Of a stretch of DNA of 46,507 nucleotides, positions 33,554 to 46,507 are shown one piece after another. Position 1 is the first letter of the stretch; every line of letters starts with the position of its first letter. Source of the stretch: Methanobacteriota archaeon (lineage in GTDB: Archaea > Thermoplasmatota > Poseidoniia > Poseidoniales > Poseidoniaceae); NCBI GenBank assembly GCA_949514915.1, contig CATFLP010000048.1:1-46507 (forward strand), given 5' to 3'. Below the pieces are notes generated by a model. It had not been told where the DNA came from and made no database searches. It was given only the letters and a program-made list of their open reading frames with translations. Made by a program: the position numbers and the translations under genes.

Positions 33554-35776
33554 TTGCGAGCCTTTGATGAATTAAACCCCCTCGCACCTTTGGTGGCAGA
33601 AGTGCGGCTTAGAGTAATCTTGTCAATTTTTTTGATTATTATAATCACATTTTTCACTTATGAATTAGGTGAAGAAGCCATTCAACTTGAGAAAAAATAT
33701 GCTTTCTATAGTGGTTCTTCTGAGTGTGTTGATGCTCCAAATGTTGTTTCAATAGAATTTCAACAATCAACTGTTATTTTGCCATCTCATGAAACATTAT
33801 TGATTCAAGCTACGTTAAAAGATTCTAGTGGCGCAGTTGTGGGGATAGATCCTGATTGGAGTAGTGATTATGGTTCTATTACTCCAATCATTGGTTTACA
33901 GCAAGCCAGATTTACACCTGGAATTCTAAGCCAAACAACAATATGGGCTTGTGCAGGAAGTGTTAACCAATCAATTACAGTTAATGTAATACAAGGAAAT
34001 GTTGAAAACTTGATAATTCAGGCATCGAAAGAAAACTTTTCTGCAGATGAATCAACAATAATAACATTACAAGGAGAAGATATTCGTGGGAACATATTTT
34101 CATTATACCCACAAAAACAAAATTGGACTTATCCAGAAGGCAGTACTTTATCAATATCTAATGAAATAACATGGAGCCCTAAACATATGGGCTGGCATAA
34201 TATTTCAGTACAAGAGTCTGGAATTGAGGCATATTTGTCCTTTAATATCTCACATGGAGCACCAATTAGATTATCCATAATTGGAGATGAAATGTTAATT
34301 ACTTCTGATGAATCGATTGAGTTACAATCAGTATTAGTTGATGCTGATGGAAATCAATGGCCTGTAATTAGTAATTGGAGTACAGGAAATAGTGAAGCAT
34401 CAGAATGGCTCACAGATTTAGGAGATAGAGCAATATTTGATGGATGGACGGTAGGTTCATGGAAGATATTTTCTGAATATACATATCAGAACACTGGTCA
34501 ATTTTTTGCATCTCAATATGACATTTTAGTATCTCCTGGAGAATTGAATCAAATATTATTAGATGGGCACGGAATGACTTTTACTGTTGATGACGTACTT
34601 GATTTAAACCCTAGAGCAATTGATTCAGCAGGGAATCTGATTCAAAATATTCAAATGACTTGGACAATAAATGGACAAGTTAGCACAGGAACATTAGAAG
34701 AAAACGAATATGTATTTTCAACTGAAACAATTGGATTATATGAAATACAAGTAATTTCAGAAGGAGGCAGTGCTTCAATTACATTTGATTTTATTCATGG
34801 TGAAGCAATCAGACTTGTTCTTACTGAAACAGGTTCAAATCAATTGACAGTAAAAAGTGGAGAAATGATTGAATTACTTACGGAGGGTGAAGATCAGTAT
34901 GGCAATCGTTTTGCATTAAATGTGAATTGGAGTTTGACTAATGGAACGGGAGATATGAATCCAAGTAGTAGGGGAATAGGATATTACGATTTTAAACCAG
35001 GTGATGCAAGTGGTTTTGTTATGATGGAATATTCAGGGTTAGGGTTATCTGAACAGATAGTAATTGAAATTAAACCAGGTGATGTCAAGAAACTTAGAAT
35101 TGAATATGAAGGTGAATTAAAGCAAGGAAATACAGTAAGGTTATTGATTTCAGCAGTTGATGATTCAGGAAATATCGTATCTTTTTGTGATGCTAATTCA
35201 GCTATAGTGACTTCAGAAATAGGTTCTGTGATTAGGGAAAATAATCAATTATATTTGAAATTTAAAGGATCGGGTTCAACAACAATTGATGTAGGTTGTT
35301 ATGGCTTTAAAGAAACATTTTATTTACAAGTTGAAGATACAATCTTATGGGGTATATTTGAAGATACACAAAAAGTTATCATATATTCATCATTATTATT
35401 GATGTTAATTATTACAATATTATTAGTAATTATGATTCAGCGTTCTAGAAGAGAATATGAGGAGTATGAAGAAAACCCTCAGTTGCCATTAATTCCAAGA
35501 ATTAATCCCTCTTTTAACATGCCTAATCCTGTAATTCCTCAACTTCCAGTTGCGCCATTGCCGTTACCTCCATTACCGCTCCCTAGGATTGCTCAACCTC
35601 CTCTTCCTCAAGCTGTAGTTCCTCAACAAACAGAAATACCTAAAGTTGAAAGTAATGAAGAAAAATTAGGTAATGCAATGAATTTGCTTGGAGGAACAAA
35701 ATTGACAGTAGAATCTCAAAAAGTGGATGAAATAGATGCCAATGTTATAGAAGATGATGATTTAAGTTGGGACTAA
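33554..35776 (+). CDS. Large surface protein with repeated Ig-like modules, C-terminal TM and Pro-rich tail
   Basis: Repeated invasin/BIG-like segments (G(D/E).{2,6}I.L..EG.D..GN.....W), [22 protein letters not shown], then a tail with [25 protein letters not shown]. Confidence 0.65.
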
Positions 35777-36678: not shown

Positions 36679-38358
36679 TTATTCTTCTTCTTGCTTAAAT
36701 TCTTGTATTGATATTAAGAATTCATCTACATCTAAAACTCCATCGCCATTGAGATCTGCAGAATGGAAATATCTTCTTAAAACTGGGCTATCTATATTTT
36801 TATCCAATTGTAATGATTTCATTGCCGAAATGAATTCTTGAAGATTTAAGTGGCCTTTATTATTTGAATCAGCTGCGTGAAAAGCAGCATAAAGTCTTCT
36901 TTTTTCTGCTTCATCAGGGTTTGTGAACATTAATCTAAAAGTATCCCAAGGTGTTATTTCATATTGTACATTCTTCTTTCCATAAGACTGGTAGATAATT
37001 AATCCAATAATTATGGTTGCTATAGCACCAATTAATGCTTTAGATCCCATTAAATATATTAGCCAAATACTTACTATAATTCCTAGAATTTGAATTACAG
37101 GGAAAAATGGAGACTTCCATTTTGGATTATACCAGGAATGGGATTTTGAAGAAGTTCTTAATACAATTACACAACAATTAATCATAATAAAAATCATTAT
37201 TTTAAATCCAGATGCTAGTTTAGCAATGTCTTTTACGGGAAGAAATGAAATACAAAAGCCCATTGCTATACCAGTAAAAATTATTGATAAATGAGGGGTA
37301 TTATATTTTGGATGCACATTTTCAATAGATTGAGGGAGTAAATTATCTCTAGCCATTGCAAATGGGAATCTTGATGTGGCCATTACTCCAGCTAAAGCCA
37401 TTCCTGTAAGCATTGTGATTGCTAAAAATGCTGAAATTTGTGCAAAAGTTTGGCCTGCAACTGAATCTACAAATACGTAAACAGGATCTTCTCTTGCAGT
37501 ATTTTCTACACTAATATATTCTGATGGATCCACTGCAGAAACCATGATAATTGAAAAAATAACATAAATTATAATACTAATTGCTAAAGAAAGCAACAGC
37601 CCTATGGGAATATTTTTTTCAGGCTCTTTGATTTCTCCTCCAATTGCGGCAATTTTTGTTACTCCAGCATAAGCAACAAAAACAAATGCTGAAGTTTCAG
37701 CAACAGAAACAATTCCAGAACCAAATGCATTTTTAGAAAAAGCATTATCCCAATTCATTGGTACAGTAAGTAGCGCTTTAATGCATATTATTGCTAAGAA
37801 AGTTACAGAAACTAAAACTATTGGTGTTTGAACCTTTTTAATTTGTTTTACTCCTAAGATATTTATTATTACAATTAATACCAATAAAACTAATGCAGCA
37901 ATTTCAATATTAATTTTCATTCCAAACATTTCTTCTAAGACCCACAAGTATGCTTTAAATCCAAGTAATGCAAATGCCGATTTAAACATAGTTGTTGCCC
38001 ATAGGCCTACACCTAGAACAGTACCGATTTGAGGGCCAAATGATTTTTCAATGTACACGTAAGCTCCACCAGAAGAAGGCATTGCGGTTGCTAATTCAGA
38101 TTTTGAAATTGTAGCTGGTAGTATTACAATTCCAGCTAGTAAGAATGCTAACCAAATACCTCCAACTGCTGTTGAACCCCCCCCTCCCATTTCTACCATA
38201 GCCAAAGCTGGAATTACAAATAACCCCGTTCCAAGCATAGATGCTAATGAGATAATAACTACAGAAAATAAACCTAATTTTCTTTCAAGAGTTTCCACCA
38301 CTCGTTCTAAGGGGTTAACAATTAATCCAACTAAATCTTTTGGAGTAAATCCCTTCAT
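36679..38358 (-). CDS. APC-family amino acid permease with C-terminal EF-hand pair
   Basis: N-terminal LGLFSVVIISLASMLGTGLFVIPALAM and about 12 TM segments; C-terminal EF loops DSNNKGHLNLQEF and DLNGDGVLDVDEF. Confidence 0.9.
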   Translation of the reverse strand: MKGFTPKDLVGLIVNPLERVVETLERKLGLFSVVIISLASMLGTGLFVIPALAMVEMGGGGSTAVGGIWLAFLLAGIVILPATISKSELATAMPSSGGAYVYIEKSFGPQIGTVLGVGLWATTMFKSAFALLGFKAYLWVLEEMFGMKINIEIAALVLLVLIVIINILGVKQIKKVQTPIVLVSVTFLAIICIKALLTVPMNWDNAFSKNAFGSGIVSVAETSAFVFVAYAGVTKIAAIGGEIKEPEKNIPIGLLLSLAISIIIYVIFSIIMVSAVDPSEYISVENTAREDPVYVFVDSVAGQTFAQISAFLAITMLTGMALAGVMATSRFPFAMARDNLLPQSIENVHPKYNTPHLSIIFTGIAMGFCISFLPVKDIAKLASGFKIMIFIMINCCVIVLRTSSKSHSWYNPKWKSPFFPVIQILGIIVSIWLIYLMGSKALIGAIATIIIGLIIYQSYGKKNVQYEITPWDTFRLMFTNPDEAEKRRLYAAFHAADSNNKGHLNLQEFISAMKSLQLDKNIDSPVLRRYFHSADLNGDGVLDVDEFLISIQEFKQEEE

Positions 38359-38398
38359 GTAGTGTCCATTGAAATTTGATTATTATATTTTTATTCTA

Positions 38399-39811
38399 TT
38401 AGTTTTTTATTTTGGCAATTACTTTCATTTCTACAGCAATTGGAGTAGGTAATGCATTAATCTCTAATGTAGTTCTTGTAGGTCTAATTTCACCAAAATA
38501 ATCTGCATAAATTGAATTATAATCCGCAAAATCTCTATCCATATTAATTAAGAATGATGTGACGTCAACAACGTCTTCTAAACTTGATCCTGAATCTTCA
38601 AGAATTGTTTTAATATTTTCAATACAAGCAATTGTTTGAGCTTTCATATTGTAGTCTAAATTCTTCCCTGTTACGTCTTTTACTGGTCCACCAGGAATTG
38701 CATTTGATTTTGGTTGTCTTGGGCCAACTCCTGAAAGATACAATAAATCTCCTACTTTTCTTGCATGCGGATAAGCACCAACGGGTTTTGGTGCACGAGA
38801 ACTAGAAAAACTTTCTTTTTCTAAATTTTCTTCATTTTCATTCGAAGATTCTTCTGATAGTTCAGAATCATTATTTTCTTCCTCATTTTCTTCTGAAATT
38901 ATAGTGTCTAGTACATTTCGATCACCATGGTATGTTTCAACATCATCTTCATCATACTCTTTATCTCCAACTTCATCTAATTTCGGAATTAATGATACAA
39001 CTGCACAACCTGCTCCATGCACAGATTCGTATGCATGTACTTTGCCTGCAAAGTTGTTATGTTGCCCCATTACTCCTGCTAGCCACCACATTGGTTTGAA
39101 CGCGACAACTTTCTGAACTCTTATCTGTTGATGAATTTCTCTAGATAATTGACTTACATCTTCCAATCTACCGTCATCTAAAAATTCTAGAATTTTACGA
39201 TTCCATTCATCATCTTTTTGTGAATGTATTTTTTCTTCATGAGGTTTAATTTTATCTGTAAACATTCTGTTTGACAATGAACTAACTACGACAACGGCAA
39301 CTTTTTTTCCTGACTTTTTAATGGCGTCATTAGCTGATTTCCCTAATACAATAGTTTCGGCTCTATTTGAGTACATGTTACTTGAACAAATACCAGCAGA
39401 TAATTTATTGTCAGGGTTTAGTAGTGAAAGTGCTACGACAGTTCCAGTATCTATTGGAAACCCATGGTATGAAACAACTCTTGATTCCAATCCTCTTGCT
39501 TTCGCTGAATTAGCCAAATTATCTGCAAATTTAGTATCTATAAGAAATTTGTAAGGCATAGATCCAAGGTAATGAAAATCATGATCTACATGAACCCATT
39601 CAGGTTCTTTTAATCCTTGGAATTGATGTCCAATAATGCTTGTCCATAGTGTGGAATAAACGAGAATTAATTCCGCTTCACTTTCTTCAATAATCATTCG
39701 TGCTTGTTCATATGCTTCTCTTAGTCTAGCCCATCCAGGACTCTTTTCGGGACATAACAATGGATGTGGATGTGCGGGCACAAATAACCCTAGTACAACT
39801 TCTCCATTCAT
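38399..39811 (-). CDS. Fusion: 2-aminophenol 1,6-dioxygenase alpha-like domain + RidA/2-aminomuconate deaminase-like domain
   Basis: N-terminal AmnA-like LLVYST-type segment (ELILVYSTLWTSIIG, VHVDHDFHYLGSMPYKFLIDT, HGFPIDTGTVVAL); acidic linker; C-terminal RidA domain PKPVGAYPHARKVGDLLYLSGVGPRQP...RPTRTTLEINALPTPIAVEMKVIAKI. Confidence 0.85.
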   Translation of the reverse strand: MNGEVVLGLFVPAHPHPLLCPEKSPGWARLREAYEQARMIIEESEAELILVYSTLWTSIIGHQFQGLKEPEWVHVDHDFHYLGSMPYKFLIDTKFADNLANSAKARGLESRVVSYHGFPIDTGTVVALSLLNPDNKLSAGICSSNMYSNRAETIVLGKSANDAIKKSGKKVAVVVVSSLSNRMFTDKIKPHEEKIHSQKDDEWNRKILEFLDDGRLEDVSQLSREIHQQIRVQKVVAFKPMWWLAGVMGQHNNFAGKVHAYESVHGAGCAVVSLIPKLDEVGDKEYDEDDVETYHGDRNVLDTIISEENEEENNDSELSEESSNENEENLEKESFSSSRAPKPVGAYPHARKVGDLLYLSGVGPRQPKSNAIPGGPVKDVTGKNLDYNMKAQTIACIENIKTILEDSGSSLEDVVDVTSFLINMDRDFADYNSIYADYFGEIRPTRTTLEINALPTPIAVEMKVIAKIKN

Positions 39812-40749
39812 TTTGAACTCACACCTTGAATTGTTCTTTTTTCATCATTAGTATCCCATGTAGCAATAGCATTTCCAGTGCCAATTATTGTACCATATTC
39901 ATGAATTGTTGCAGGATATGTTGGGTAATTAAGAGAACTTAGCATCCATGTGAGTGCACCACCATCGGTTTCAGCTACTGTTTGTTCAGTAAATTCGGGC
40001 ATCATCTCTATTAATTCCTTAGTTTTTCCATTTTTCATCATGTTAATCATTTTCATATCCCATAAATATTGGGAATGATTTGTAATATGCTCTTTTGACA
40101 TATCTTCAGGAACTTCTGACTCATTTACGAAATGACGATGTGAAAGAGAGTTGCTAGAAATCACAACCGCCTTTTTTCCACTTTTCCAAATTGCTTTTCT
40201 TGTTGCTTCACCTAATTTAATCATCATTTCTTGCATTACCTCTACAGAATAATAATGTACAGATCTATTTGATGAGATAGATACAATGGGTTTATCCCAC
40301 TTTGGATTTGTAAGGTGGCAAGAAGTAATAGTTCCATAATCTACCCTAAAATCTGGATTTTCCATCATTCTTACCGAAAGTCCATCAGATTCTGCTTCGT
40401 CATGAATCATTTTTGCTAATTCAACATCAATATTAATGTCGTAATGATAACGAAATAAATTCGGGAAAATTGGATCGACACTTAGAGATTTAAAATTATC
40501 CAATCCAAGAAAGTGAGTTCCAACGTATGTTTGCCAATGTGGTGAAAGAATTACGATAACATCATAATCAATACTTTCAAGTTGTTTTCTTAATCTTTCA
40601 TAACCCCATCTTAGCGTTTCCCAACCACATTCTGCTTTTGGCTCGTTTTGAGGGGGATTTTCTGCATAAACAAGATGTGGAGGATGTGGTGCTAAAAGCC
40701 CAGCAACAATTCTGCCTCCGCCCATGTATGTTCGAATCATAACAAGCAC
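39808..40749 (-). CDS. 2-aminophenol 1,6-dioxygenase beta (catalytic) subunit-like, class III extradiol dioxygenase
   Basis: LLAPHPPHLVYAENPPQNEP, LSPHWQTYVGTHFLG, DPIFPNLFRYHYDINID, FRVDYGTITSCHL, HEYGTIIGTGNAIATWD; putative His/His/Glu metal ligands retained. Start may be ATG 40725. Confidence 0.87.
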   Translation of the reverse strand: MLVMIRTYMGGGRIVAGLLAPHPPHLVYAENPPQNEPKAECGWETLRWGYERLRKQLESIDYDVIVILSPHWQTYVGTHFLGLDNFKSLSVDPIFPNLFRYHYDINIDVELAKMIHDEAESDGLSVRMMENPDFRVDYGTITSCHLTNPKWDKPIVSISSNRSVHYYSVEVMQEMMIKLGEATRKAIWKSGKKAVVISSNSLSHRHFVNESEVPEDMSKEHITNHSQYLWDMKMINMMKNGKTKELIEMMPEFTEQTVAETDGGALTWMLSSLNYPTYPATIHEYGTIIGTGNAIATWDTNDEKRTIQGVSSK

Positions 40750-40795
40750 ATGAACCCATTGAAAGAATTCATAAGATGATTGTTGATGTCCAAAC

Positions 40796-41326
40796 GTGAC
40801 CGAATATTCTCACGTTGAAGATGAGTTTGTTGTCGTCAATAATAAGAATTTGATTAAGGGGGATTTGAAGTCTTCAATTTTGCCCTTATTAATTGGGATT
40901 CCAGCAGGAATATTTTCTTCATTCATAAAAAATAATTACATAAATAGTGGATATTTGAGTTCTGAATATTATATTGGTGCTGCTTTTGAATTTCAATTAC
41001 TTGTATTCTTCTCATTATTATTTGGAATTCCTTTATTTTTTTTAGAATCTAAAAGATTTCAAGCCTCTTTTAAAGAAATGTTGATTGGAAGTTTTATTTG
41101 TAGTTTTATTTGTTTTTTAATTGCTTATGGATATGGTTATTTTCCATTATTACTTATGTTTTATCTTCAATGGCTTTGGATGTGTTATTTTTGGCAAAAA
41201 AAATATATTCCAGCATTTCGTTATGCAATTTGGTTATCATTAGGTTTACTATGTGGCGCTATGGCTGGTTCAATAATTTTTCATTTAAATATGTTTATTC
41301 TTGATTATTTTGAATATTATTATTAA
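40796..41326 (+). CDS. Small polytopic membrane protein, hypothetical
   Basis: 176-aa ORF with about four hydrophobic segments, lying opposite to the flanking catabolic genes. Confidence 0.5.
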   Translation: MTEYSHVEDEFVVVNNKNLIKGDLKSSILPLLIGIPAGIFSSFIKNNYINSGYLSSEYYIGAAFEFQLLVFFSLLFGIPLFFLESKRFQASFKEMLIGSFICSFICFLIAYGYGYFPLLLMFYLQWLWMCYFWQKKYIPAFRYAIWLSLGLLCGAMAGSIIFHLNMFILDYFEYYY

Positions 41327-41333
41327 TTTAATA

Positions 41334-42776
41334 TTAATCATTCATTGTACAAATATTTTGTAATTCACTAAAAAAGTTTAGAGAATATAATCCTCCTTCT
41401 CTACCTAATCCTGAATTTTTAACTCCTCCAAAAGGAACTCTTAAATCTCTGTGTAACCAACAATTAATCCATACCATTCCCGTATCTAATTTTTCGGCAA
41501 TATCTCCCCCAAGGGTTGCATCTTGAGTCCATATGCTTGCTGCAAGGCCATAATTAGTAGAATTTGCAATTTGTATTGCTTCTTCGATTTCATTAAATTT
41601 GTGAATTGTTACAACAGGCCCGAATATTTCTTCAGTGGCAGTTCTTGATTTGTAATCTAAACCAACAATTATTGTCGGCTCATAAAATGCACCTTCTGCA
41701 AAATTATTATTAAAATTAGGACGTTGCCCTCCATAAAGGATTTCTCCACCTTCTTCAATTGCTAATTTTACGTAATTATCTACTTTTTCAAGATGTTCGT
41801 TTGAGATTAATGATCCTAATTGTGTATTTTCATCTAGTGGATCGCCAATTTTCATTGATGAGACCGATTGTTTAAACAGTTCTAAAAATGAAGAATATAT
41901 TGATTCATGAACAAGAATTCTTGAACCGCACAAGCAAACTTGACCTTGATTAAGAAAAGAAGATCTTACTATGTTGTCTATGTGCGAATTTAAATCCGCA
42001 TCTTTTAGAATTATAGTTGCATTTTTCCCTCCTAATTCAAGACTGATTTTTTTAAACATCGGGGCAGCAGTTTTAGCTACAATTTTTCCTGTTTTTGTTC
42101 CACCTGTAAATGAAATTAAATTTATTTCAGGATGAGATACAAGTGCTTGTCCACATTCATTTCCATATCCATGAATTAAATTAAAAACTCCCTTTGGTAA
42201 ACCTAATTTATGGATTACCTCAGCTAATAAATTTGCAGTTATTGGAGTTAATTCTGATGGCTTGGCAATAATACAATTTCCCATAACTAATGCTGGTGCT
42301 ACTTTCCAAGATAGAAGGTATAGTGGGAGATTCCAAGGAGTAATTAATCCAGCAATACCTACAGGCTTATTGACAATATTATTTATTGCGTCTTTCATTT
42401 CAAATTTTTTATTCTCCATATTCCTTGCTAAATCTGCAAAGAATCTAAAGTTGTTAACAGATCTTGTTGCATCTACATTTCTTGAAAGTGAAATCGGCTT
42501 CCCCGTATCTATTGATTCTAATTTTGAAATCTCTTCAAATCTTTTTTCTAATTCGTCTGCAATTTTATCTAACCATTCTGCACGTTCTGTAATAGATAAT
42601 TTAGACCATGATGATTTTGAAAGATTACATGCATCTACAGCATTTTGAATATCTTGTGAAGAAGACCTTGGAATAGTTGCAATTTTTTCATTGGTAGCAG
42701 GATTAAAATTATCGATACATTCATCATTTTTTGAACTTACAAATTCCCCATTGATGTAATTTTGAATGCTATTCAT
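41334..42776 (-). CDS. Aldehyde dehydrogenase, 2-aminomuconic/2-hydroxymuconic semialdehyde dehydrogenase-like
   Basis: TPWNLPLYLLSWKVAPALVMGNCIIAKPSELTP; catalytic Glu in LELGGKNATIIL; catalytic Cys in NQGQVCLCGSRILV. Confidence 0.88.
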   Translation of the reverse strand: MNSIQNYINGEFVSSKNDECIDNFNPATNEKIATIPRSSSQDIQNAVDACNLSKSSWSKLSITERAEWLDKIADELEKRFEEISKLESIDTGKPISLSRNVDATRSVNNFRFFADLARNMENKKFEMKDAINNIVNKPVGIAGLITPWNLPLYLLSWKVAPALVMGNCIIAKPSELTPITANLLAEVIHKLGLPKGVFNLIHGYGNECGQALVSHPEINLISFTGGTKTGKIVAKTAAPMFKKISLELGGKNATIILKDADLNSHIDNIVRSSFLNQGQVCLCGSRILVHESIYSSFLELFKQSVSSMKIGDPLDENTQLGSLISNEHLEKVDNYVKLAIEEGGEILYGGQRPNFNNNFAEGAFYEPTIIVGLDYKSRTATEEIFGPVVTIHKFNEIEEAIQIANSTNYGLAASIWTQDATLGGDIAEKLDTGMVWINCWLHRDLRVPFGGVKNSGLGREGGLYSLNFFSELQNICTMND

Positions 42777-43942
42777 TCTTCTTCACCTATTGCTCCTAAG
42801 TCTTCAAAAATACCGTTTTTGATGTGTTTTTTCCAATCATATAGCCACCTGTCTGTATTAGGATCCCATTCGTCCCAAGTTGGAATTTCTTCTAGAATTT
42901 TTAATTTTGAAGGAGGTACAATTCCTGGTACAATGAATGCTTTTTGTTTATCTAATGGGTATGGATTACGAAGATTAAAACCGAGAACGCCAAGAATTGC
43001 TCTAGCTACATACCATGTTGCTTGAGGATTCCATCCATGTGCAATTTTAATTACCACTCCTAAACCTTCAGGAAAATCATCATGAATAATTGAAAGACCT
43101 AGTAATCCATCAGCACCTTCCTTTGCTAGAACTTTACCGTCACAAGATTTTATTATGGTTGAATCTAATCGATTAAAACCGCCAATTAAATCTGGATTTT
43201 TAATCATTGAATCCCAAATCCAATCTGAGTTTTTATCACGTACTAAATAAGAAAAAAGTATTGCCAATTCATTTACAGTATTGGAAACAGTCGGCAATCC
43301 ACAACCATCTTTACCTACTTTTAATGGCTCCCAATCTTCACCTAATATCTTTTTTAGATTTAACAAATAATGTTGAAAAACTTCGTGACCAGGTAGTGTA
43401 TATCCAGCGCGATTCCAACCTTTTAATTTACATCCTTTGAGAATTGCTGCATGTTCTCCTGAACATGTATGATACCATCTTCTTGGCCTTCTTACCTGAC
43501 GTCCAAATTGAACCAAGGGTGTGTCTAATGGAGTTTGCATTAATCCCCATTCTGCTTCTTTAAGAAGTGATTGAGCAGATGCAACATGTTCAGTATCTCC
43601 ATTATGGCTAGATACAGAAATTGCTTTTTGTTCCCATGTGGTTTCAGACTCAAGAATTTTAGCAAATGTTTTCATCATTATAGGCTTCATCATTGAACGT
43701 CCGTAACAAAGAACATTACCCCCAAAAGAATGTATTATTTCATTCCCGTGTGCCCATGCAACAGCACCATGAATAGTAGTTTCAGAAACACCATTTCTCC
43801 GATAATCAACAAGAGGTTGCCAATTAACATCTCTTCCTGTAGCAATGCCTTTTTCTGATTTTCCAAGTGGGGACTCAGGATATACTTCACTGCCTGGTTT
43901 CCCAGGAGATACTGCAGTTTTTTGCTCATGTTTTATACTCAT
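42773..43942 (-). CDS. L-asparaginase II-family amidohydrolase
   Basis: CYGRSMMKPIMMKTF, YHTCSGEHAAILKGC, GKDGCGLPTVSNTVNELA match conserved blocks of the asparaginase II (AnsA/ReAV-like) family. Confidence 0.82.
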   Translation of the reverse strand: MSIKHEQKTAVSPGKPGSEVYPESPLGKSEKGIATGRDVNWQPLVDYRRNGVSETTIHGAVAWAHGNEIIHSFGGNVLCYGRSMMKPIMMKTFAKILESETTWEQKAISVSSHNGDTEHVASAQSLLKEAEWGLMQTPLDTPLVQFGRQVRRPRRWYHTCSGEHAAILKGCKLKGWNRAGYTLPGHEVFQHYLLNLKKILGEDWEPLKVGKDGCGLPTVSNTVNELAILFSYLVRDKNSDWIWDSMIKNPDLIGGFNRLDSTIIKSCDGKVLAKEGADGLLGLSIIHDDFPEGLGVVIKIAHGWNPQATWYVARAILGVLGFNLRNPYPLDKQKAFIVPGIVPPSKLKILEEIPTWDEWDPNTDRWLYDWKKHIKNGIFEDLGAIGEEE

Positions 43943-43952
43943 ATGATCAACT

Positions 43953-45188
43953 TTATTTTGTAAAATGAGGCGCTACTAATTTCATGAAAGAAGTCATATT
44001 TCTACAAACTCTTTCGGAATTATGGTTGAAGAAATCAAACCAAGTCATTAACCTATCATCTGGATGAAATCTTTCTTTTATTTGTTTAATGATTTCTTCA
44101 GAATCACCAATTAATGCATTATTTGCTGCCTTTGAAATCTTTTCAGGATCAATAGTTCCTTCAAGGGCATTCCAATAACTTCCTAAGGCTTCCTCAGCTT
44201 CTTTTTTTGCTTCTATATTTTTCTCTTCTTTAGACAAACCTTCTTCTTCATTAATAAAAACAAATACAGTTCTAGGCATATTTCTTCTTTCCCAAGTCCC
44301 TCCATCTTCATGATAATCTTCTTTCATTCTTTTGTGAGTTGAATCAATAATCTCAGGAGAGGTAATTGAGAGATTGAATACATTAACTGGATAAATTGTA
44401 TTGCAAAATTTCTGTGCATTTGGATCATGAGTACCAGCTATTAGATTTAAAAGCCCTCGATCCCACTTTTGAGGAATTGTTTTTATTTTCTCAAATTCCC
44501 ATCTATTGGGTATGTTAATATGGGTACTTTTTTCTGAATTTTGTTCAGATTCCATTTTTGAATTTTGTACACTCTCCCATGATTCATCATCTCTAAAAAG
44601 ATCCCTTGTTAACACTGTTTTACGAATATCTTCACTAGAAATCACATCTCCGCGAATTAACCTTAAGAAAATATCACATGCTTCTAGGAATATTTGACTA
44701 CGTAATACAGGCCATGCTGCATCTTCAACATTGTTTCTTGGAACTATTCCATATGGTCTGGCCATAAATTCAAAACGTCCTGATGAAAAACCAATGTTTA
44801 ATTTTCTATTTTCGTTTTTATTTAGTCCGTGTAAGGCAAGAAATGCACCAATTCTTTCAGCCATTCCAATTGGTCCACCGTTACAAAAAATACTCATTAC
44901 AGCACTACCAACTTCGATATTTTTTGTTCTAGCAAACATTTGATGTGCTAATTGAAAGAAATCTGTGCATAAACCTACTTCTCCTTGCCAGTGAGGTATA
45001 ACTGGTTTTTTGTTTAATTTTTGAGTTTCAGTTGAAAGATGAGATTGAGCAACCCATGCGACACCAAATCCAAGATTATCAGCAACTTCTAGTTGCGTAA
45101 AGAAATTTGAGTACATTGTGTCTTCAGAGGGAATAATTCCATTTGCATCAGGAGTTTGACTAATAGAAAAAAAGATATCAAACTCCAT
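43953..45188 (-). CDS. LLM-class flavin-dependent monooxygenase (luciferase-like)
   Basis: N-terminal LEVADNLGFGVAWVAQSHLS, IEVGSAVMSIFCNGGPIGMAERIGAF, LNIGFSSGRFEFMARPYG typical of TIM-barrel luciferase-like monooxygenases. Confidence 0.85.
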   Translation of the reverse strand: MEFDIFFSISQTPDANGIIPSEDTMYSNFFTQLEVADNLGFGVAWVAQSHLSTETQKLNKKPVIPHWQGEVGLCTDFFQLAHQMFARTKNIEVGSAVMSIFCNGGPIGMAERIGAFLALHGLNKNENRKLNIGFSSGRFEFMARPYGIVPRNNVEDAAWPVLRSQIFLEACDIFLRLIRGDVISSEDIRKTVLTRDLFRDDESWESVQNSKMESEQNSEKSTHINIPNRWEFEKIKTIPQKWDRGLLNLIAGTHDPNAQKFCNTIYPVNVFNLSITSPEIIDSTHKRMKEDYHEDGGTWERRNMPRTVFVFINEEEGLSKEEKNIEAKKEAEEALGSYWNALEGTIDPEKISKAANNALIGDSEEIIKQIKERFHPDDRLMTWFDFFNHNSERVCRNMTSFMKLVAPHFTK

Positions 45189-45197
45189 TTAAATCAC

Positions 45198-46004
45198 TCA
45201 TATAGATCTCATTCTTCCGCCATCAACAGCCATACTAACTCCTCTAATTCCTCCACTGGAGGGTAAACACAAGAATGTAATTGCCAATGCGGTTTCTTGA
45301 GGATTAATTAGTCTCTTAATAGGAACTTGTTCAAGCCATTTTTGTTGAATTTCTGAAATATTTCTGCCCGTTTTATCACTAATTGATTTAGCTAGGGAAT
45401 TTAATCTGTCCGTGTCTGTAAAACCAGGTAGTATATTGTTGATTGTAATGCATGGAGGTAATTCTCTTGATAGTGATTTTGACCAAGAAGCCATTGCACC
45501 TCTCAATGTATTTGATAATCCAATATTCTCTATAGGTTCTCTGACTGATGTAGAGATTACATTCACAATTCTACCCATCCCTGATTTTTCCATTCCTGGA
45601 ATTAGCATTTTTGTAATTGTATGCGATGCATGAAGATGTCTTTTGAATGCAGGAATAAATTCTTCAATTTCAGTTTCAAGTAAAGGTCCTCCTGGAGGTC
45701 CAGATGCATTATTAATTAGAATGTGTATTGGTCCATCTAAAAGTAATTCGGATACACACTTTTCTACATTTGCAGTATCTTCTAAATCAAGCGAGAGTGC
45801 TTTTGCAGAACTAGCCCCTAAATTATTTAATTCGCTACATAATTGCTCTAAGGCCTCTTTACTTCTAGAACAAATTATTAGATCCGCTCCTGCTTTAGCC
45901 ATAGCTTGTGCTGCTGCTTTTCCAATGCCTTTTGATGCACCGCATATTAGTGCTCTATATCCTTTTAATGCTGTATTTTTGTATGGAAATTCATCATCTA
46001 TCAT
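45198..46004 (-). CDS. Short-chain dehydrogenase/reductase (atypical active site)
   Basis: ALICGASKGIGKAAAQAMAKAGADLIICSRS, ILINNASGPP, RIVNVISTSV, NNILPGFTDTDR. Confidence 0.9.
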   Translation of the reverse strand: MIDDEFPYKNTALKGYRALICGASKGIGKAAAQAMAKAGADLIICSRSKEALEQLCSELNNLGASSAKALSLDLEDTANVEKCVSELLLDGPIHILINNASGPPGGPLLETEIEEFIPAFKRHLHASHTITKMLIPGMEKSGMGRIVNVISTSVREPIENIGLSNTLRGAMASWSKSLSRELPPCITINNILPGFTDTDRLNSLAKSISDKTGRNISEIQQKWLEQVPIKRLINPQETALAITFLCLPSSGGIRGVSMAVDGGRMRSI

Positions 46005-46025
46005 TTTAACTCCTCATTTGTATTT

Positions 46026-46507
46026 TTAATCAACATAGTGTTTATAGGTTTCATTTTCTAACTTTTGGTTTACTTTATCAAGAATGTCTTGTGGTGCATT
46101 TCTAAATGTTGGCCAATCACTTTCACCTTGAGAGTGTCTCAATTCATCCCATCGACCTTCATCATAAGCAATTAATGCTTCTTTCATTAATATACCTGCT
46201 AATACCAAGGTTTCATAACAAAGATCTTCGTAAGTCATACCTCTTTTTACTGGGACTTCTCTACGAAGTAATAAATCTCCAGTATCAATTCCGTTATCAC
46301 AGAAATGAGTTGATGAACCAATAGGTATGTCGTGATAAACAGACCATGCAGGAGAAGCAGAGCCTCTGCAATCTGGTAATAATCCTGGATGAGAATTAAT
46401 CACTCCATGTAATGGGTAATCTAGAATTTCTCCACGGATAATTCTTGTTCCTCCAAATACAATTAAATCTAATTCTAAATTTTTAAGATATGGCATAACT
46501 TCTTCAG
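46026..46507 (-). CDS. Formyltransferase-fold protein (methionyl-tRNA/GAR formyltransferase-like), 5' end outside window
   Basis: GVINSHPGLLPDCRGSASPAWSVYHDIPIGSSTHFCDNGIDTGDLLL: Asn, His and Asp of the formyltransferase triad present; frame open through the window edge. Confidence 0.82.
   Translation of the reverse strand, partial: EEVMPYLKNLELDLIVFGGTRIIRGEILDYPLHGVINSHPGLLPDCRGSASPAWSVYHDIPIGSSTHFCDNGIDTGDLLLRREVPVKRGMTYEDLCYETLVLAGILMKEALIAYDEGRWDELRHSQGESDWPTFRNAPQDILDKVNQKLENETYKHYVD

Follow-up and report, generated by a model that had tools for sequence, protein, structure and literature searches.

Marine Group II archaea appear to break down tryptophan through 2-aminophenol with a conserved gene set and no recognisable kynureninase

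Why should a planktonic archaeon of the surface ocean carry genes for opening an aromatic ring? The question is raised by a stretch of 46,507 nucleotides (hereafter the window), which is the entire contig CATFLP010000048.1 (C48) of a Poseidoniales (Marine Group II) genome of 1.79 Mb and 85% completeness, and on which lies a gene cluster resembling those for the meta cleavage of 2-aminophenol. Marine Group II has been called the most abundant group of planktonic archaea in the surface ocean, and its members are believed to feed on proteins and amino acids (PMC6461757), and the main text of two genome surveys of the group makes no mention of tryptophan, kynurenine, dioxygenases or aromatic ring cleavage (PMC6461757, PMC6336850). 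Our answer is that the cluster probably supplies the greater part of a full aerobic pathway for tryptophan degradation in which kynureninase has no place. As to chemistry, we lean towards an undescribed route in which Baeyer-Villiger oxidation of kynurenine or its formyl derivative by a luciferase-like flavin monooxygenase (LLM), together with an asparaginase-derived hydrolase (Asn2), replaces kynureninase, the side chain leaving as aspartate and not alanine and the 2-aminophenol going on to meta cleavage; an abundant group of archaea in the surface ocean would have this as a core trait, in common with Acidobacteriota, Planctomycetota and others.

Pfam and NCBIfam profile searches and PDB sequence searches bore out most of the gene families named in a preliminary description of this DNA, and all of the genes it named were located on the minus strand at the coordinates collected in Table 1. 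The AmnB-like catalytic subunit (LigB) scores 370 bits to the beta subunit of 2-aminophenol 1,6-dioxygenase (8ihg_A) and 367 bits to 3vsg_B, and all aligned orthologues keep the positions of His13, His62, His195 and Glu251 of 3vsg_B, which we take to be the 2-His-1-Glu iron site and the catalytic histidine. A LigB-like protein of the MEMO/AMMECR type was considered and rejected, as the PDB search matched only aminophenol and homoprotocatechuate dioxygenases. In the fusion protein (LigA::RidA), the AmnA-like part (about residues 5-273) has the alpha subunit 3vsg_A as its best match (150 bits), has STL in place of the SPH motif and lacks the metal site, while the C-terminal RidA domain (about residues 334-467) matches the 2-aminomuconate deaminase 6izh by a small margin over the generic RidA-type protein 2dyy (93 versus 86 bits). 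The best PDB match of the aldehyde dehydrogenase (ALDH) is 2-aminomuconate-6-semialdehyde dehydrogenase (AMSDH; 4u3w, 488 bits), an enzyme that binds its substrate through Arg120 and Arg464 (PMC4286809). R105, R443 and C281 of the ALDH align in 4u3w with these two arginines and the catalytic Cys302, which does not settle its substrate because hydroxymuconic semialdehyde dehydrogenases are close relatives. With true aminophenol dioxygenases, AMSDH and 2-aminomuconate deaminase as the best matches among characterised proteins, and with metal ligands and substrate arginines retained, the earlier suggestion of a 2-aminophenol-type meta-cleavage set holds: the cluster encodes a 2-aminophenol 1,6-dioxygenase, predicted from its sequence to act on 2-aminophenol.

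Such a set had been thought unexpected in an archaeal setting, with bacterial misassembly as a possible cause. Of 58 related genomes, 56 carry the dioxygenase, with every one of the 20 genera and both of the sampled families represented; the cluster is thus close to universal in Poseidoniales and not unusual within the lineage. A chimeric contig was rejected because the flanking genes are syntenic across the 20 genera. Counted over the fetched Poseidoniales loci with both genes on the contig, the adjacencies are near-invariant (LLM-Asn2 55/55, Asn2-ALDH 58/59, LigB-LigA 76/76 and LigA::RidA-permease 53/53), so the linkage of these genes is beyond chance. In a LigB tree the Poseidoniales group with Planctomycetota, Holophagae and a 'Deltaproteobacteria' metagenome-assembled genome (MAG), with the characterised AmnB/CnbC proteins apart on a long branch. 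Transfer of LigB between domains, in one direction or the other, is likely on this topology.

The bacterial relatives point to where the 2-aminophenol would come from. In five Acidobacteriota genomes (L142, L143, L164, L165 and L170), tryptophan 2,3-dioxygenase (TDO), a short-chain dehydrogenase/reductase (SDR) and the LLM are consecutive on one strand with TDO first. L142 (Sulfidibacter), L143 and L165 add ALDH and RidA to this run, L164 adds these two and an arylformamidase, and L170 adds Asn2; wherever RidA occurs in these operons it is a separate gene. LigB-LigA-Asn2 and the contiguous, single-strand run TDO-SDR-LLM-ALDH-RidA occupy two separate sites in Sulfidibacter corallicola and in a Holophagae MAG. 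Further Acidobacteriota carry LLM-Asn2-ALDH-LigB-LigA::RidA, to which L168 adds an arylformamidase. An arylformamidase gene lies within the cluster in four bacteria (L070, L085, L164 and L168); in a Planctomycetota MAG and a 'Deltaproteobacteria' MAG it comes after the dioxygenase genes. The two arylformamidases that were scanned, those of L085 and L164, score 215 and 203 bits to TIGR03035 (KynB), below its cut-off of 223. The gene set is linked genomically to tryptophan: with TDO at the head of an operon that also holds orthologues of the SDR and LLM in five bacteria, tryptophan is the most likely substrate, by way of N-formylkynurenine and kynurenine. TDO (PF03301) is present in 55 of the 58 Poseidoniales, the source genome included (G000:C19:268-1272), and keeps the HQxxELWF motif, the heme histidine and the GTGGSSG motif.

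The 'Deltaproteobacteria' MAG UBA6601 has benzoyl-CoA oxidation genes beside its tryptophan genes: TDO adjoins BoxC and BoxB (784 and 734 bits; L146:2100-5188), and the AmnBA cluster adjoins BoxD (700 bits; L070:7358-8917).

Kynurenine is an aryl ketone, and insertion of oxygen beside its ring turns the side chain into aspartate. In the route that we infer, TDO, encoded elsewhere in the genome, would convert tryptophan to N-formylkynurenine, a deformylase would yield kynurenine (before or after the oxidation), and the LLM would carry out a Baeyer-Villiger insertion of oxygen into the bond that joins the ring to the ketone carbon, giving the 2-aminophenyl ester of aspartate. This ester is expected to rearrange by a shift to N4-(2-hydroxyphenyl)-asparagine, and Asn2 would hydrolyse the aspartyl ester or amide to L-aspartate and 2-aminophenol. 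Ring opening by AmnBA would then give 2-aminomuconic semialdehyde, which the ALDH would oxidise to 2-aminomuconate, and RidA would deaminate that to 4-oxalocrotonate. The identities of AmnBA, AMSDH and RidA fit the route because it would deliver 2-aminophenol, and a beta-aspartyl ester or amide as the Baeyer-Villiger product would explain the universal asparaginase-like partner. The Baeyer-Villiger assumption alone would in fact account for the presence of the LLM, the asparaginase-like enzyme and the formyl-handling genes as well as for the link to TDO and the lack of kynureninase. The preliminary description had set the LLM, amidase and formyltransferase outside the classical amn operon; they are indeed added genes, but what looked like odd additions would now form the upper pathway of the tryptophan route.

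The LLM scores under the Pfam threshold (PF00296, 25.4 bits versus a cut-off of 27.9), and its AlphaFold model, with a predicted local distance difference test (pLDDT) score of 91.7, is a luciferase-like TIM barrel that matches luciferases in Foldseek at E 1e-13, the nearest folds being RslO1, bacterial luciferase and alkanesulfonate monooxygenase. The predicted fold is that of the FMNH2-dependent luciferase family (bacterial luciferase, SsuD/MsuD and type II Baeyer-Villiger enzymes), and the nearest solved structures are FMN monooxygenases; in contrast to those enzymes, to which its identity is about 14%, the LLM belongs to a distinct family of about 410 residues with no NCBIfam match. We propose that it acts as a Baeyer-Villiger monooxygenase of kynurenine (or N-formylkynurenine). 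A plasmid search returned a lone LLM homologue of 47% identity on pCLA1 of Streptomyces clavuligerus (L150:9001-10245), the other pathway genes not being with it; this homologue may put the same chemistry to work in specialised metabolism. The plasmid search with Asn2 retrieved only distant asparaginases.

For Asn2, the reference is the Class 3 L-asparaginase ReAV of Rhizobium etli (PF06089), whose catalytic and zinc residues are described in PMC8602277 and PMC11024299; enzymes of this class act on beta-aspartyl carbonyls (PMC8602277). Asn2 retains the equivalents of ReAV Arg47, Ser48, Lys51, Ser80, Asp187 and Lys263, both Ser-Lys tandems included. It differs from ReAV in scoring only about 50 bits to ReAV-type chains and in its zinc site, where Cys135/Lys138/Cys189 of ReAV are not kept: the Asn2 of the window has Glu for Lys138, and most members read Cys/Glu/Cys. 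We propose that it cleaves a beta-aspartyl ester or anilide of 2-aminophenol. In the Asn2 of two Holophagae (L072:11893-12975 and L102:11887-12999), all three zinc positions are changed together, to Ser/His/Asp, which suggests that another metal or no metal at all is bound.

The slot immediately upstream of the SDR gene is taken in the window and at four loci by the formyltransferase-fold protein and in other genera, at 37 loci, by an alpha/beta-hydrolase that has an HGGFW motif. The two never occur together, and the SDR and the slot gene remain paired even at loci where the pair has moved away from the LLM. Since the two are mutually exclusive, we read them as an enzyme replacement at a single step, which would be formyl removal, and propose that the formyltransferase-fold protein removes or transfers the formyl group of N-formylkynurenine. 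The model of the alpha/beta-hydrolase is poor (pLDDT 59.5); its matches are generic esterases only, and kynurenine formamidase is not among its PDB relatives. The SDR, which adjoins the LLM in the genus of the window and in those bacterial clusters that possess it, has no YxxxK in any aligned member and an invariant GxSNTxRGA in its place. It may be the flavin reductase partner of the LLM; alternatively, since hydratases of the DmpE type are missing, it may be an enoyl reductase acting late in the pathway, taking the unsaturated ring-cleavage product towards 2-oxoadipate. The permease is a candidate importer of tryptophan or other aromatic amino acids, and its EF-hand pair is an unusual calcium-binding addition on an archaeal amino acid transporter.

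Kynureninase (TIGR01814) scores over its cut-off in one of the 58 Poseidoniales, which is not the source genome, and none was found in the four bacterial carriers examined first, each of them with TDO and the LLM. The one archaeal case is a full kynureninase (426 bits; G040:C29:6106-7323, L124) alongside the dioxygenase, and may be a contaminant or have been gained recently. In a sample of 396 Acidobacteriota, with kynureninase counted at E <= 1e-50, the LLM occurs in 9, TDO in 128 and kynureninase in 78 genomes; all nine LLM carriers have TDO (Fisher p = 3e-5 over the 396) and none has kynureninase (Fisher p = 0.003 among TDO carriers), both tests ignoring shared ancestry. The alternative that survives best, and that we still consider unlikely, is that a kynureninase went unrecognised, so that tryptophan would pass through 3-hydroxyanthranilate or anthranilate, AmnBA would cleave 3-hydroxyanthranilate or 2-aminophenol formed by decarboxylation, and the LLM and Asn2 would serve side steps. 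Linkage to TDO and arylformamidase suits any kynurenine route, and the AMSDH and RidA steps are common to the 3-hydroxyanthranilate pathway. Yet neither 57 of the 58 Poseidoniales nor any of the nine LLM-positive Acidobacteriota has an over-cut-off kynureninase, the cluster shows no decarboxylase gene, and no role would remain for the LLM and Asn2, whose linkage is the most conserved of all (55/55).

Several points nevertheless weigh against the Baeyer-Villiger route, the neglect of shared ancestry in the two tests among them. The TDO gene of Poseidoniales is not linked to the operon, and the LLM is remote from characterised type II Baeyer-Villiger enzymes, with a best PDB sequence match of E 0.4. 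A kynurenine 3-monooxygenase or a non-homologous kynureninase could still operate; PF01494, tried as a marker of the former, matches 58/58 genomes and 14/14 controls and was dropped as non-discriminating. Finally, the 2-oxopent-4-enoate hydratase/4-oxalocrotonate decarboxylase family (DmpE/DmpH-type; TIGR03220) gave no match at E 0.001 in any of the 58 Poseidoniales genomes, so the pathway has an open end after 4-oxalocrotonate, where there is no DmpE/DmpH route.

The preliminary description looked instead to an exogenous substrate, an amide- or N-formyl-bearing aromatic or N-heterocycle. An N-substituted aromatic of this sort (amide, N-formyl or benzoxazolinone-like) that releases 2-aminophenol, with the TDO linkage coincidental or regulatory, would suit the amidase, formyl-handling and flavin monooxygenase genes as well as AmnBA, which works on 2-aminophenol, and the MAG with benzoyl-CoA box genes beside both its AmnBA cluster and its TDO (L070, L146) could be read in the same way; we nonetheless find it very unlikely, because five bacterial genomes have TDO in one operon with orthologues of the SDR and LLM, every LLM-positive genome tested has TDO, and a gene set that is a core trait of nearly all these free-living archaea of the ocean does not resemble an accessory pathway for xenobiotics. 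Equally doubtful is that the LLM hydroxylates the ring or N-oxidises the amino group of kynurenine, with Asn2 hydrolysing some other amide or ester and an ortho-aminophenol arising by non-Baeyer-Villiger chemistry: LLM-fold enzymes do perform varied oxidations and this one has no close characterised homologue, but the carbon-carbon bond would still need cutting, whereas a Baeyer-Villiger product accounts directly for the asparaginase-like partner.

Compared with amnBACD of nitrobenzene and 2-aminophenol degraders and with CnbCaCb, the cluster likewise groups homologues of AmnB, AmnA, AMSDH and a RidA-type deaminase with their catalytic residues kept, but it fuses AmnA to the deaminase, adds the LLM, Asn2, SDR and formyl-handling genes, is linked to TDO in bacteria, and stands in a lineage with no DmpE/DmpH-type lower pathway. 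With the kynurenine pathway (TDO, kynurenine formamidase, kynurenine 3-monooxygenase, kynureninase and 3-hydroxyanthranilate dioxygenase) it shares TDO, a KynB-type arylformamidase in several bacteria, and an ending in AMSDH and aminomuconate deaminase; it differs in having the LLM and Asn2 in place of a recognisable kynureninase, and in cleaving the ring with a LigB-type aminophenol dioxygenase (a cupin-type 3-hydroxyanthranilate dioxygenase elsewhere in the genomes was not searched for).

In titles and abstracts of the open-access literature, subscription journals and preprints not being covered, no matching route from tryptophan to 2-aminophenol was found, and neither 2-aminophenol in Marine Group II nor kynurenine with Baeyer-Villiger, 2-aminophenol, asparaginase or luciferase-like monooxygenase gave anything relevant. 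The enzyme families are known, but within that scope neither their combination nor the route inferred here turned up, and both are apparently new. The gene set, present in almost every Marine Group II archaeon of the sunlit ocean and in some bacteria, appears to serve tryptophan breakdown through 2-aminophenol. If this is true, kynurenine has a third fate, several unnamed gene families gain functions at once, and the reactions can be tested directly in cultured Sulfidibacter corallicola, which carries orthologues.

Table 1. Genes of the cluster in the window, with the basis of each assignment.
Feature	Coordinates	Strand	Basis
APC amino-acid permease with C-terminal EF-hand pair	36679..38358	-	PF00324 143 bits, PF13499
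AmnA-like non-catalytic subunit fused to RidA/AmnD-like deaminase	38399..39811	-	PF02900 + PF01042
AmnB-like catalytic subunit, 2-aminophenol 1,6-dioxygenase (class III extradiol, LigB fold)	39808..40749	-	PDB matches
2-Aminomuconate-6-semialdehyde dehydrogenase-type ALDH	41334..42776	-	Top PDB matches AMSDHs
Asparaginase-II-like (Class 3) hydrolase (Asn2)	42773..43942	-	PF06089 154 bits
Luciferase-like flavin monooxygenase (LLM)	43953..45188	-	AlphaFold model, TDO neighbourhood
SDR	45198..46004	-	Alignment; closest PDB 5vps, 136 bits
Formyltransferase-fold protein, cut by contig end	46026..46505	-	PF00551 (Formyl_trans_N)

The tight spacing reported earlier was confirmed to the nucleotide, with gaps of 21 (formyltransferase-SDR), 9 (SDR-LLM) and 10 (LLM-Asn2) nucleotides and a 4-nucleotide overlap of Asn2 and ALDH, and the LigB and LigA::RidA reading frames also overlap by 4 nucleotides. 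The cluster does not form a single unit, however: an open reading frame (ORF) on the plus strand (40796-41326) separates ALDH from LigB, and there are therefore at least two transcription units. This ORF, divergently oriented, encodes a membrane protein with no Pfam match, and similar ORFs adjoin the dioxygenase in other Poseidoniales (L091:9411-9899 and L109:9428-9910). Because the contig stops within the formyltransferase gene, the 10 kb to its right are unreadable in the source genome; relatives show this flank, and L033 has the entire formyltransferase gene, of 240 residues. On the other side, beyond panB, the window encodes a 740-residue protein with a C-terminal membrane segment (33554-35776), weak relatives of which (22-29% identity), often large ORFs, occur near the cluster in many Poseidoniales.

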